Source of the DNA: Buttiauxella sp. B2
Lineage (GTDB): Bacteria; Pseudomonadota; Gammaproteobacteria; Enterobacterales; Enterobacteriaceae
Length of the DNA: 64,000 nt
Assembly (NCBI RefSeq): GCF_006376615.1
Contig: NZ_VEXQ01000005.1
Coordinates: forward strand, 62,001 to 126,000
Reading direction: 5' to 3'
Under the pieces are notes generated by a model that saw only the letters and a list, made by a program, of their open reading frames with translations, searched no databases and was not told the origin of the DNA. Of this stretch, positions 37,081 through 42,724 are shown piece by piece; the first letter of the stretch is position 1; each line of letters starts with the position of its first letter. The translations under genes were made by a program, and so were the position numbers.

Positions 37081-38520
<1,440 letters not shown>

Positions 38521-38535
38521 TTAATTTGATATGCC

Positions 38536-38575
38536 AAAAGCCCCGGGTGCACGAGCAAGCGGGGCTTTTCTTTTT
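38536..38575. terminator. Bidirectional terminator between bglA and the histidine kinase gene
   Basis: AAAAGCCCC pairs with GGGGCTTTT across a loop, with T-rich flanks on both strands. It serves bglA on the plus strand and the two-component operon on the minus strand, whose last codon overlaps its edge. Confidence 0.88.
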
Positions 38576-40040
38576 AGATAGGTAAACCAAAGCGGAAACA
38601 GGCACCGGTTTCAGGTCTTTCCACCAGCGCAATATCGCTACCATGCAGCTGCAACATCTGGCGCACAATCATCAGCCCTAACCCGCCGACTCTGATGTGC
38701 GACTGATTAACAATCGAAGGCCGCACAAATAAACCCTCTTTGAGTTCCTGTGGAATACCCGGCCCGCTATCGCTAATTTGCACCATCACTTTTTCACCCT
38801 CTTTCCACAGGCGCACTGCGACGGTCCCCTTTTCCGGCGTATGACGAATCGCATTATCCAGCAAGTTGGTGAGCACCCGTTCAATCATCCCCAAATCAGC
38901 ATCAATCAATGGCAAACCAGGCTGTATATCAGCCACTAATTGTAGTTGCCGTGTTTGGGTCATCAGTTCAAATTTCTGGAACACATCCTGCAATAATTCA
39001 CCGAGGCAGAAATGTTCTTTTTGCGGCTTCACGACACCGTATTCAAGACGAGCCAATTCAAACAAAGACTGCGCGAGCATCCGCACTTTTTGGCTTTGCG
39101 CTAACGCAATTTCCAGATAGCGCTTTTTCTCGGCTTCAGAAAGTGTCGTTGACATTACGGATAAACTTTCCAGATAGCCGTGAAGAGACGTCAGTGGCGT
39201 GCGTAAGTCATGGGAAATATTGGCAATAAACTCGCGGCGGAGTTGGTCTTGCTGCGACAGGCGATGCCATTGCTCCGAAATTCGCCGCGCCATCATGGTA
39301 ACCCCCTGGCGCAACAGTCTTATTTCGTCATTGCTCTGCTCTTTATCAAGCGGCAGCTCGGCCATCGCCTGCATTTCAGCCATACCACCGGTTTCCAGCG
39401 CGTTAACCTGACGCGAGAGCGAACGAAGTGGCCGGGTTATCCAACGAAACGCCAGTCCCCCAACAAGCAGCCCTAAAAGGACGACCAGACCGATAGAAAG
39501 CAAAACCACCCTGGAAATGGCATTAAATTGCGCGTCGCTTGCCAGCGCATTGTAATTTTCACCGAGCAAAATGACGTACAGATAACCTTTAATTTGTCCG
39601 TTTTGCCGCATCGGGGCGACACTAAAAACTTTCTTTCCATCCACACTGCGCGGGTCGTCACCGTAGATAGGATACTGACGTTCATTTAACGCCGACTGAA
39701 TTGGTTCCAAATCGACGCGATGGCGTTTGATATGGTCGGGAGGTGCTGCATCACCAATGATATTGCCCTTCTCGTCTAACAGATAAACTTCCACACTTGG
39801 GTTTACCGTCATCAAATGATCAAACAGTGTACGCACGGATTCATTATTCAGGCCATCTTGCCCAAGCAATGGGTAGCTTTGGTTGATGTGTTCGGCAAGC
39901 GAACCCGAAAGTTGTTGGACAACCGCCTGGCTGTACTGCGTGCTGCTGCGAATTTGCAACCACCCCAGCAATGAGCAAGAGGTGATTAGCAGCAACGCAA
40001 ACACCAGAGTCAGGCGTTGTGAAAGAGTGAGTTTTCTCAT
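38574..40040 (-). CDS. Sensor histidine kinase next to a periplasmic oxidoreductase operon
   Basis: 488 residues. Helices at about 8-28 and 176-198 flank a periplasmic sensor of about 150 residues; then HAMP, a HisKA domain with H277 (ISHDLRTP) and a HATPase_c domain with the N box (LLDNAIRHTPEKG), DSGPGIP and GGLGLMIV. It should phosphorylate the response regulator 3 bases upstream. The divergent neighbours (cytochrome b561, molybdo-oxidoreductase, Met-rich protein) suggest it senses periplasmic oxidation, like HprS next to msrPQ in E. coli; it is not an obvious HprS orthologue. Confidence 0.88.
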   Translation of the reverse strand: MRKLTLSQRLTLVFALLLITSCSLLGWLQIRSSTQYSQAVVQQLSGSLAEHINQSYPLLGQDGLNNESVRTLFDHLMTVNPSVEVYLLDEKGNIIGDAAPPDHIKRHRVDLEPIQSALNERQYPIYGDDPRSVDGKKVFSVAPMRQNGQIKGYLYVILLGENYNALASDAQFNAISRVVLLSIGLVVLLGLLVGGLAFRWITRPLRSLSRQVNALETGGMAEMQAMAELPLDKEQSNDEIRLLRQGVTMMARRISEQWHRLSQQDQLRREFIANISHDLRTPLTSLHGYLESLSVMSTTLSEAEKKRYLEIALAQSQKVRMLAQSLFELARLEYGVVKPQKEHFCLGELLQDVFQKFELMTQTRQLQLVADIQPGLPLIDADLGMIERVLTNLLDNAIRHTPEKGTVAVRLWKEGEKVMVQISDSGPGIPQELKEGLFVRPSIVNQSHIRVGGLGLMIVRQMLQLHGSDIALVERPETGACFRFGLPI

Positions 40041-40043
40041 GGT

Positions 40044-40754
40044 TTACTCGTGTCGCGGCGCAATAAATTTATACCCTTTTCCCCACACCGTAAGAATGAA
40101 CTCGGGCTCTGCGGGGTTATCTTCAATCTTGATGCGTAACCGGTTGATGTGGGTGTTAACCGTGTGTTCGTAACCTTCGTGTTGATAGCCCCAAACCTGG
40201 TTGAGCAGATTGAGGCGTGAAAAAACTTTTCCCGGATGTTTGGCAAAGAACCACAGCAGGTCAAACTCGCGCGGCGTAAGCTCAACAGGTTGCTCTCTAA
40301 GGCGAACATCACGGGCTAACGGATCGATGGTGAGCCGTTCGAATGTCAGCGTTCCTGCATCCTGCATCAAGTTCTGGCTCATGGCTTCCTGGCGGCGGAA
40401 TAACGCTTTGACTCGCGCCACGAGTTCCAGCATCGAGAAAGGTTTTGCCAGATAGTCATCGGCTCCAAGCTCCAGACCCAAAACCCGGTGCGTTTCACTT
40501 GAACGGGCGCTGATCATTACGATCGGCGTGTAACGCGTCATGGTGCGCGCATGGCGACATATCTCCAGGCCATCGACGCCCGGTAACATGAGATCAAGAA
40601 TCAGCGCATCCCAACCGCCCTGTTTAAGTAATTCCAGCCCCAGTGAACCATCTGCCGCATGGACAATTTCAAAACCTTCTTCTCGCAAATGCAGCTGCAA
40701 AAGTTCAGCAATATTTTCGTCGTCCTCAACAATTAATAATTTTTTGGGCTTCAT
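40044..40754 (-). CDS. OmpR/PhoB-type response regulator
   Basis: 236 residues: a receiver domain with acidic pocket (EDDE), phospho-acceptor D54 (LILDLMLPG), Thr/Ser and Lys (AKPFS), then an OmpR-type winged helix (ELTPREFDLLWF to GYKFIAP). The ATG at 40754 is preceded by AGGCGA; a GTG one codon earlier is also possible. Transcribed with the kinase and divergent from the cytochrome b561 gene across 143 bp, where its binding site would be expected. Confidence 0.9.
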   Translation of the reverse strand: MKPKKLLIVEDDENIAELLQLHLREEGFEIVHAADGSLGLELLKQGGWDALILDLMLPGVDGLEICRHARTMTRYTPIVMISARSSETHRVLGLELGADDYLAKPFSMLELVARVKALFRRQEAMSQNLMQDAGTLTFERLTIDPLARDVRLREQPVELTPREFDLLWFFAKHPGKVFSRLNLLNQVWGYQHEGYEHTVNTHINRLRIKIEDNPAEPEFILTVWGKGYKFIAPRHE

Positions 40755-40897
40755 CACTTCGCCTTTTATCCACCAGTTACAGGAAGTCTATACAACAAAT
40801 GAGCGTCGAGTTATCACATTTAATTTAACTTTTCGTGAGACTTTGGCGAACAGATTTAGGCCACACTCATTACAACGCAATAACGGGAAATAAAACT

Positions 40898-41509
40898 ATG
40901 GATACGCCAACGTTTCAGGTTAAACCCGCCATAGTTCATCCACGGTGGCTAAGGGTTTGCCACTGGTTGAACGCGCTCGCCATACTCATTATGGTCACCA
41001 GCGGATGGCGCATTTATAACGCCTCGCCGTTGTTTAATTTCAGTTTTCCGAATGAGTTAACACTCGGTGGCTGGTTAGGAGGCGCGTTGCAGTGGCATTT
41101 TGCAGGGATGTGGTTATTCGGCATTAATGGTGTGATTTACCTGCTGATTAATATTTTCAGTGGTCGCCTGAAACGCAAATTTTGGCCTTTATCACCACGC
41201 GAATTAATAAACGATTTTTTAGCTGCGCTGCGTGGAAAGCTGGCTCATGAGGATCTCAGCCACTACAACACGGTACAAAAATTGGCGTATCTGTTTGTGA
41301 TGATCGACGGGATCATTCTGGTTTGCTCCGGCTTGGTCGTGTGGAAATCGGTGCAGTTTCCGCTGTTAAGGGAATTACTCGGCGGTTATGACACTGCGCG
41401 CATTATTCATTTCTTTGCTATGTCCGGAATGGTCGCATTTGTTGTCATTCATCTAATTATGGTGGCATTGGTTCCCAAAACTTTACTCGCCATGCTGCGT
41501 GGGCGATAA
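40898..41509 (+). CDS. Cytochrome b561-type membrane protein
   Basis: 203 residues with four hydrophobic helices and candidate haem-ligand histidines in HPRWLRVCHWLN, WHFAGMW, RIIHFFA and VVIHLIM. This is the di-haem b561 type found beside periplasmic molybdo-enzymes. It probably feeds quinol electrons to the oxidoreductase encoded 9 bases downstream, in place of MsrQ (YedZ). The ATG at 40898 has GGGAAA upstream. Confidence 0.9.
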   Translation: MDTPTFQVKPAIVHPRWLRVCHWLNALAILIMVTSGWRIYNASPLFNFSFPNELTLGGWLGGALQWHFAGMWLFGINGVIYLLINIFSGRLKRKFWPLSPRELINDFLAALRGKLAHEDLSHYNTVQKLAYLFVMIDGIILVCSGLVVWKSVQFPLLRELLGGYDTARIIHFFAMSGMVAFVVIHLIMVALVPKTLLAMLRGR

Positions 41510-41518
41510 GGGAAAAAA

Positions 41519-42307
41519 ATGAACAATAAAAATAAGATTTTTTCTGATTCCGACAAAGCTGCCATTATTCAGGATGCGACACAGCAAATTAATAAGCAGT
41601 TATCGTCTGAAGGCCGTCGCCGATTTTTAAAACAAGGTTTAACGCTCGGCGGTTTAATGATGCTGACCGGTTGCGATATTAGTGATAACAAATCAGTCGA
41701 AACCACTTTAAGCGGTATTTCACGCTTTAACGATCGCATCCAGGCGATGTTATTTAATGCCAACGATCTGGCTCCGGTTTATCCTGAAAGCATGATGACG
41801 CGCCCGTTTCCTTTCAATGCTTTTTATAGTGAGGACGAAGCTCCCGTTATAAATGGTGACGATTATCGTCTGGAGGTTGCAGGCCTGGTGGCTGATAAGC
41901 GCCCATGGACGCTAGCACAATTACACCAGATGGCGCAGGTCAGCCAAGTAACGCGCCATATCTGCGTTGAAGGATGGAGCGCTATTGGCAAATGGGGAGG
42001 TGTGCCGTTCTCTTTATTTCTTAAGGGTATTGGTGCCGATCTGAACGCCCGTTACGTTAGCTTCAAATGTGCTGATGATTATTACACCAGCATTGATATG
42101 GCAACCGCACTTCACCCACAGACCATTATTGCACTCACTTACGATGGCCAAATATTGCCACGTAAATATGGTTTTCCAATGAAATTAAGAATGCCTACCA
42201 AGCTTGGCTATAAAAACCCAAAACATATTTTGGTTATGGAAGTCACTAATCGCTACCCAGGAGGTTACTGGGAGGACCAGGGCTATAACTGGTTTGGCGG
42301 CAGCTAA
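41519..42307 (+). CDS. Tat-exported molybdopterin oxidoreductase, MsrP/sulfite-oxidase fold
   Basis: 262 residues. The N-terminus carries a twin-arginine motif (R33-R35, RRRFLK) followed by a hydrophobic stretch ending in a lipobox (LTGC, C52), so it is probably a Tat lipoprotein. The oxidoreductase molybdopterin-binding domain follows, with the Mo-ligand Cys C149 in HICVEGWSAIG. MsrP (YedY) of this fold reduces periplasmic methionine sulfoxide. AAGGGA site before the ATG. Coupled with the b561 gene and followed by a Met-rich secreted protein. Confidence 0.88.
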   Translation: MNNKNKIFSDSDKAAIIQDATQQINKQLSSEGRRRFLKQGLTLGGLMMLTGCDISDNKSVETTLSGISRFNDRIQAMLFNANDLAPVYPESMMTRPFPFNAFYSEDEAPVINGDDYRLEVAGLVADKRPWTLAQLHQMAQVSQVTRHICVEGWSAIGKWGGVPFSLFLKGIGADLNARYVSFKCADDYYTSIDMATALHPQTIIALTYDGQILPRKYGFPMKLRMPTKLGYKNPKHILVMEVTNRYPGGYWEDQGYNWFGGS

Positions 42308-42311
42308 CAAC

Positions 42312-42371
42312 ATATCCGTCATCCTTCAAGTTGCAGAGTTATTGGCTGCAACTCAAATGCTAAAGGTTATA
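42312..42371. repeat. Short ERIC-like palindrome
   Basis: About 60 bp: ATATCCGTCATCCTTCAAG and TTGCAG on the left, then GGCTGCAACTCAAAT and GGTTATA on the right, forming a near-palindrome without the central ERIC core. It fills most of the gap between the molybdo-oxidoreductase gene and the Met-rich protein gene. Confidence 0.65.
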
Positions 42372-42415
42372 TGTAGTTACCATCTGTAGTTAATAACACG
42401 ACGAGGAAATAAAAA

Positions 42416-42679
42416 ATGAAAAAACTCTACGCTGCTCTGATGTGCTCAGCATTATTCTTTGGTATTGCTGGCGCTAATGCGGCCGATAGTATGGCGAAAG
42501 ATAGTATGGCGAAAGATAACATGGAGAAAATGTCCCATGACTGTTCTAAAGACAGTATGAAAAAAGACTGTATGTCGAAAGAGCATATGTCTAAGAATGG
42601 CATGACTAAAGATCATATGTCCAAAGACAAGATGACCAAAGATAATATGTCTAAAGACGATATGAGTAAAAAACAATAA
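42416..42679 (+). CDS. Secreted pentapeptide MxKDx repeat protein (Met-rich)
   Basis: 87 residues: a signal peptide of 23 residues ending ANAA, then 64 residues built from eleven pentads of the type D-x-M-x-K (DSMAK, DNMEK, DHMSK, DDMSK). The mature part has 12 Met, many Lys and Asp, three His and two Cys, and no hydrophobic core, so it should be disordered. Protein families of this repeat are known but little studied. Next to an MsrP-like enzyme it could be a renewable methionine oxidant sink, as proposed for MrpX of Azospira suillum; that is inference. A good AGGAAA site precedes the ATG. Confidence 0.9.
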   Translation: MKKLYAALMCSALFFGIAGANAADSMAKDSMAKDNMEKMSHDCSKDSMKKDCMSKEHMSKNGMTKDHMSKDKMTKDNMSKDDMSKKQ

Positions 42680-42686
42680 CCCGAAT

Positions 42687-42724
42687 AATGGCAGTCACTT
42701 GAGTATTCAGGTGATTGCCATTTA
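42687..42724. terminator. Terminator between the Met-rich gene and ygfF
   Basis: AATGGCAGTCACTTGA pairs with AGGTGATTGCCATT with two mismatches, followed by TTATTTTATTT. It sits between convergent genes and can act in both directions. Confidence 0.8.

Follow-up and report, generated by a model that had tools for sequence, protein, structure and literature searches.

A chromosomal Orh-type gene set in Buttiauxella sp. B2 that probably forms an oxidant-inducible, renewable periplasmic methionine sink

The window analysed here is a stretch of 64,000 nucleotides of Buttiauxella sp. B2 (NZ_VEXQ01000005.1, positions 62,001–126,000 of the forward strand), in which, at 38574–42679, genes for a sensor histidine kinase and a response regulator diverge from genes for a cytochrome b561-type membrane protein, a molybdopterin (Mo) oxidoreductase and a secreted methionine-rich peptide. 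An initial annotation had located these open reading frames (ORFs), assigned their protein classes and noted the divergent layout, all of which is borne out by the ORF calls and by domain and model matches. The kinase gene (38574–40040, minus strand; 488 aa with HAMP, HisKA and HATPase_c) and the gene for the OmpR/PhoB-family regulator (40044–40757, minus strand; 237 aa with Response_reg/Trans_reg_C, GTG at 40757 and ATG at 40754) encode orthologues of OrhK and OrhR and form a two-component system (TCS). The plus strand carries the b561 gene (40898–41509; 203 aa; PF01292, 85.7 bits), for which we take the ATG at 40898 as the start, the ORF list having a longer GTG start at 40835; the gene for a Tat-type Mo oxidoreductase lipoprotein (41519–42307; 262 aa; PF00174, 98.3 bits) with twin arginines at residues 33–34 and Mo-ligand Cys149; and the gene for the MXKDX-repeat peptide (42416–42679; 87 aa), within which degenerate 15-base (5-codon) tandem repeats span 42485–42664 (plus strand). 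A Rho-independent terminator lies 3′ of the peptide gene (42687–42722, plus strand; −24.6 kcal/mol, z −6.8). A specific hairpin between the enzyme and peptide genes is rejected (z −0.92), as is a known RNA element, Rfam giving nothing above gathering scores. Scanning the divergent region for promoters likewise gives no consensus match.

We find that this gene set is a further member of the published Orh system. The kinase, regulator and Mo enzyme are 48% (to C_RS16920), 66% and 62% identical to those of uropathogenic Escherichia coli (UPEC) CFT073, and the b561 protein and peptide are 59% and 42% identical to those of E. coli strain ERP001, whose locus agrees with that of CFT073 at 99.3% in DNA; the kinase is also 51% identical to a copy on plasmid p666. 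Among the best 80 of 575 matching loci, which we term the named loci, the closest are from Buttiauxella. On one side of the window's set lies a 6-phospho-beta-glucosidase-like gene (37087–38520) that we take to be bglA, and on the other a short-chain dehydrogenase/reductase (SDR) gene, presumably ygfF, followed by what is presumably gcvP; the SDR gene is on the opposite strand, beyond the strong terminator, and this junction carries the gene set in 6 of the 80 named loci, four from Buttiauxella and two from Cedecea. The E. coli and Buttiauxella systems share the five genes, their divergent order, orthologous proteins and a TCACA-N15-YGTGA repeat before the b561 gene, but the E. coli set is part of a pathogenicity island in which transcription continues into hlyCABD (accessible parts of PMC8550376), whereas the Buttiauxella set sits between bglA- and ygfF-gcvP-like genes, as in Cedecea, and ends in a strong terminator.

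The accessible parts of the 2021 paper describe OrhK/OrhR-c3566-c3567-c3568 of CFT073, with the same five genes, as a putative methionine sulfoxide reductase system induced by peroxide (Gu et al. 2021, PMC8550376), so the initial statement that no such version was described in Enterobacteriaceae does not hold. There, phosphotransfer and promoter binding are demonstrated, C3565 binds the c3566 promoter, upstream of which lies a TCACA-N15-TGTGA inverted repeat, expression rises on exposure to tert-butyl hydroperoxide and within macrophages, and c3564, c3565, c3566 and c3567 mutants are sensitive to tert-butyl hydroperoxide; the same parts contain neither a c3568 mutant nor an enzyme assay (PMC8550376). 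They also set C3566 against MsrQ (23.1% identity, PMC8550376), whereas the ERP001 orthologue is a PF01292 b561 protein (88.7 bits). Matches to the ERP001 copy occur in 283 of 5426 E. coli genomes (megablast) and matches to the window's enzyme gene in 350 of 5426 (blastn), with 75 of 363 places on plasmids. The CFT073 b561 gene (locus L139, 2552–3150) is flagged as frameshifted in NC_004431; the feature is listed in NZ_CP051263, and other strains have intact copies.

The peptide and the enzyme travel together. In a family sample of 198 genomes, the peptide model TIGR02953 is matched above its cut-off in 29 genomes (32 at E 0.001) and the window's Mo enzyme (query P0004) finds a match of at least 64% identity in 29; the two sets are identical, and both genes lie within ~250 bases of each other in all 29, as judged by comparing coordinates by eye. 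With no TIGR02953 match in any of 14 control genomes, the peptide match is far from chance. A phylum sample of 398 genomes gives 35 with TIGR02953 above cut-off, five of them already examined; reading of the 30 further regions places b561 and Mo enzyme genes within ~1 kb of the peptide gene in 17, for a total of 22 of 35, and the 13 genomes lacking the enzyme by the peptide include nine of one genus and one more of that genus's family. Among the named loci, the b561 gene is found in 80 of 80 and the peptide gene in 77 (L064 runs into a contig end; in L067 and L094 no peptide gene lies within 1.5 kb), and the link holds across Enterobacterales, Pseudomonas and Achromobacter. The proposed association of peptide and enzyme is thus upheld, and the repeat gene is mostly found with the enzyme genes in both samples. 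The regulator stands beside the operon in 38 of 80 named loci, comprising most Enterobacterales, most Achromobacter and no Pseudomonas. A related enzyme of 56–61% identity is present in 21 of 198 genomes, and no copy adjoins a TIGR02953 match; a tree of 42 rows places a distant peptide-first group apart (100/100) and does not separate the close group from this related pair. A 6.4 kb Klebsiella variicola plasmid (L136) carries the b561, Mo enzyme and MXKDX peptide genes, and Raoultella planticola L046 has a response regulator with no kinase match within 4 kb.

The divergent region contains a predicted OrhR operator, TCACATTTAATTTAACTTTTCGTGA, at 40814–40838 (plus strand), which is the sole match to TCACA-N15-YGTGA in the window, with zero matches in 100 shuffles. 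The pattern is present in 41 of 44 divergent regions; two of the three misses have diverged (L076, L168) and the third, L139, is an extraction error, the CFT073 region containing the operator. Across 40 distinct sequences, at least 90% agreement is reached by 20 of 25 columns within the operator, compared with 8 of 30 in the upstream flank and 5 of 30 in the downstream one. The operator is almost unchanged from Buttiauxella to Achromobacter. With at most one mismatch allowed, exactly one match per genome is found in 28 of the 198 family genomes, and the reversed-pattern control gives 0; the window's own genome likewise has one. Operon genomes make up 25 of these 28; of the others, G023 keeps the TCS and operator with a spore-coat-U-type gene next instead of the operon, G027 has the operator and a peptide without the enzyme, and G039 has a match with a broken half site that looks like chance. 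Among the 29 operon genomes, 26 have the TCS next to the operon. Every one of these 26 carries the site, which matches the pattern in 25 and is a diverged copy in G171; in the other three, a TetR gene lies upstream (G011 and G158) or the contig ends there (G137). At L170 (2315–3908) the TCS and operator are retained and a spore-coat-U-type gene follows in the operon's place; at L182 (3427–3996) and L187 (3446–4012) a TetR gene lies upstream of b561-Mo-peptide and the TCS is missing, L182 also having a GAF-domain gene. The operator, together with the promoter binding and peroxide induction published for the E. coli orthologue (accessible parts of PMC8550376), supports the earlier proposal that this TCS is the local regulator. 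Orthology to HprSR is rejected, with the regulator at 161.5 of 353 bits on the HprR model. The periplasmic sensor domain of the kinase (residues 31–178; 39507–39950, minus strand) is predicted to adopt a mixed alpha/beta fold (pLDDT 80) and gives weak Foldseek matches, the CitA and CusS sensor domains among them.

The Mo enzyme has the SUOX fold and is matched best, in Foldseek, by E. coli MsrP/YedY structures, so that the initial label of MsrP-like stands for the fold; it fails as family membership, with 77.6 bits against the 207 cut-off of the MsrP equivalog NF003767. The same genome encodes a separate MsrP (506.8 bits on that model) and holds MsrPQ above both model cut-offs, its own MsrQ being a PF01794 protein. 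The partner in the window matches PF01292 with no ferric-reductase match and is hence not of the MsrQ type, in agreement with the suggestion that b561 takes the place of MsrQ; its His14, 22, 67, 171 and 185 are kept in 112–114 of 116 sequences. In the phylum regions, MsrQ was searched for with a single query at E 1e-10, a threshold too stringent for absence to be concluded. In a conserved-residue check of 41 sequences, the lipobox Cys52 (codon at 41672–41674, plus strand), followed by Asp in the window, is invariant (41 of 41), and Cys-Asp is found in all 34 enterobacterial loci checked (one record titled Chryseobacterium); Asp after the lipobox Cys is an inner-membrane retention signal in enterobacteria. 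That the enzyme is instead a sulfite or other S/N-oxide oxidoreductase, with the peptide an unrelated neighbour, we consider very unlikely: its structural score against SorA is equal, and the NCBIfam SorA and SoxC models match weakly (43 of 600 and 42 of 420 bits, far under their cut-offs), but PF00174 is the sole meaningful Pfam match, with no dimerisation domain, MsrP gives the best structural matches, and the link to the peptide persists in all three of the bacterial groups named above. The Buttiauxella genome has a third, short PF00174 gene (175 aa; L004, contig C12), whose product recalls in size the PruR pterin-binding proteins that are found among the fold matches of the Mo enzyme.

The mature peptide, cut after ANA, has 12 Met as first reported, in 65 residues rather than 64. 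It scores 51.3 bits on the pentapeptide MXKDX model TIGR02953, above the cut-off of 41; two E. coli peptides reach just 35–36 bits, under it. In nine aligned relatives, the invariant columns comprise 11 of 12 Met, 12 of 15 Lys, 7 of 12 Asp and 4 of 25 other residues. Statistics on mature peptides cover 45 of 82 loci, because the signal-peptide regular expression used did not recognise the peptide in the remainder; in these 45, Met-to-Met spacing is five residues in 513 of 569 cases, 24 of 45 are free of Cys and 7 of 45 free of His, with no Leu or Trp and almost no aromatics, and in the family sample Met makes up 19% of the mature peptide. A charged chain with regularly spaced Met is the conserved feature, as expected for an oxidant sink.

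Met-rich periplasmic proteins also bind Cu(I), and the peptide might instead buffer Cu(I) or Ag(I) through its Met residues in a locus serving copper stress. The CusS sensor domain is among the weak fold matches of the kinase, and the related enzyme pair is accompanied in L125 by a divergent TCS of heavy-metal type (regulator 332.7 bits, cut-off 279.2), with similar-looking regulator ORFs in L124, L126, L127 and L132. We nevertheless regard a metal buffer as very unlikely, as the window's own regulator and kinase score far too low on the heavy-metal models (172.9 bits for a cut-off of 279.2, and 153.5 bits for one of 292.55), so that a heavy-metal-type TCS is rejected here, the Cys and His counts of the mature peptides speak against it, and the nearest described systems are oxidant-induced. 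In the five related-pair loci read (L122, L124, L125, L127, L128), a secreted protein without Met enrichment is encoded next to the pair; that of L122 is DUF5666-like (22.3 bits, under the cut-off of 27) and that of L124 has no Pfam match.

OrhR-type regulators (threshold E 1e-95) are found in 45 of 198 genomes, in 19 of which the regulator is not beside the operon, indicating that the regulator family is wider than the operon. We read 17 of these 19 (all except G189 and G196). In four genomes of four genera (G027, G067, G086, G126), a single Met-rich ORF stands opposite the regulator, an operator-like site separates the two, and the stretch read has no enzyme beside the peptide; the arrangement of an Orh-type TCS facing such an ORF across the site is seen at L131 (3938–4204), L172 (4238–4504), L173 (2945–3223) and L176 (2776–3066). 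Three of the four lone peptides score 22–37 bits on TIGR02953, under the cut-off of 41, and that of G086 (88 aa, 14 Met) has no match at E 0.001, so the four are only loosely related to MXKDX peptides. In the remaining 13 of the 17 genomes, a script found no Met-rich ORF by the regulator, and in several of these the TCS sits between what we take to be rlmC- and artJ-like genes. The regulators near the peptide also vary, from TCS to TetR to extracytoplasmic function (ECF) sigma factor and NrsF (ECF genes near the peptide in L150, L156, L158 and L165; NrsF genes in L150, L161 and L162), or none found nearby. A secreted-looking MsrA gene adjoins the peptide gene in L144 (4174–4935), where the enzyme and TCS genes are also present, and a secreted-looking MsrB gene lies one gene away in L161 (3563–4096), which has no Mo enzyme nearby; both point to Met sulfoxide as the shared chemistry. 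Exported msrA/msrB are likewise noted in perchlorate islands, in the accessible parts of PMC4623255.

These variants bear on whether the b561/Mo pair is first of all a general repair system for periplasmic protein Met sulfoxide, like MsrPQ, with the peptide a helper or decoy of small effect. We judge this unlikely. The peroxide sensitivity of c3566 and c3567 single mutants (accessible parts of PMC8550376), the related pair that stands apart from any TIGR02953 match in 21 genomes, and MsrPQ in the same genome are consistent with it; on this view Buttiauxella would have two repair systems with different inducers. Against it, the peptide is kept with a close enzyme in every family genome that has either and in nearly all named loci, its Met residues are conserved, and four genera keep the regulator, the operator-like site and the Met-rich peptide with no adjoining enzyme. 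Since the putative recharging enzyme is present in most lineages seen and absent by the peptide in four enterobacterial genera, the conserved core may be a unit of regulator, operator and peptide, that is, one TCS, one 25-bp site per genome and one sacrificial Met-rich peptide, with the b561/Mo enzyme and the regulator exchangeable; we put this forward tentatively, as a possibility rather than an expectation. In the boldest version, the kinase would read the oxidation of Met, either within the kinase domain outside the membrane or on the peptide, and the sink would thereby report its own state. Met77 is the only invariant Met, Cys or His position of the sensor domain (43 sequences, window included), but its candidacy as a dedicated sensor is weakened by L177.

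Similar systems are described outside the family. One of these, mrpX-yedY1Z1 with sigF/nrsF of Azospira suillum, was reportedly presented by Melnyk et al. in 2015. It combines a Met-rich periplasmic peptide with a Mo Met-sulfoxide reductase and a membrane partner, according to the accessible parts of PMC5748585 and PMC4623255, and in the window, too, the gene for a secreted Met-rich peptide adjoins those for a Mo oxidoreductase and a membrane haem protein. In the window a TCS replaces the sigma/anti-sigma pair sigF/nrsF, so the Buttiauxella set works like that system and is not a member of it. In Brucella melitensis bcrXQP, with bcrS/abcS, an MXKDX peptide is co-transcribed with a putative Met-sulfoxide reductase pair and induced by hypochlorous acid, but control is by ECF and the peptide gene is first (accessible parts of PMC8315932); other loci with that gene order (L150, L158, L164) have a PF01292 b561 protein and an enzyme 36–39% identical to that of the window. 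MsrPQ (YedYZ) with HprSR in E. coli shares the SUOX fold, the Mo-ligand Cys, the twin-Arg export signal and TCS control, whereas the Buttiauxella enzyme falls under the MsrP cut-off and has a lipobox, its partner is b561 and not MsrQ, and its regulator is not HprR. A suspected link to the Pseudomonas aeruginosa fro operon is dropped: in the accessible part of a review, none of the four Fro proteins is regarded as characterised, and neither a peptide nor an Msr is mentioned there.

The Azospira and Brucella precedents and the orthology with published Orh genetics support our favoured reading, that the locus is a chromosomal Orh-type, oxidant-inducible, renewable periplasmic methionine sink, which we consider probable; the oxidant-defence logic of the initial annotation is supported, and its functional reading is plausible. 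The gene set and its orthology, the operator, the lipobox, the Mo-ligand Cys, the haem-His pattern, Met conservation and co-occurrence are observed here. OrhK would sense oxidant stress, its presumed stimulus, through the periplasmic domain and phosphorylate OrhR, which would bind the 25-bp inverted repeat at 40814–40838 and activate the b561, Mo enzyme and peptide genes up to their one shared terminator. The exported peptide would then take Met oxidation in place of other envelope proteins. We infer that the Mo lipoprotein at the inner membrane works in the reducing direction, with the Met sulfoxide of the peptide as its substrate, perhaps along with that of other periplasmic proteins, and that the b561 protein passes it electrons from a putative quinol donor.

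As far as our literature search reaches, the conserved one-site operator, the b561 rather than MsrQ partner and the enzyme-free regulator-peptide form go beyond what is in print; the search returned no paper for b561 with MsrP and methionine sulfoxide, nor for b561 with methionine-rich, molybdopterin and operon. Orh is known from a UPEC pathogenicity island; its relatives in Buttiauxella and Cedecea occupy a fixed chromosomal junction, and it is widely spread in Enterobacterales and Achromobacter with its operator nearly unchanged. This suggests that defence of the envelope against oxidants, and not virulence, is likely to be its basic role. Buttiauxella would allow the question of a rechargeable oxidant sink to be studied free of the linked haemolysin.

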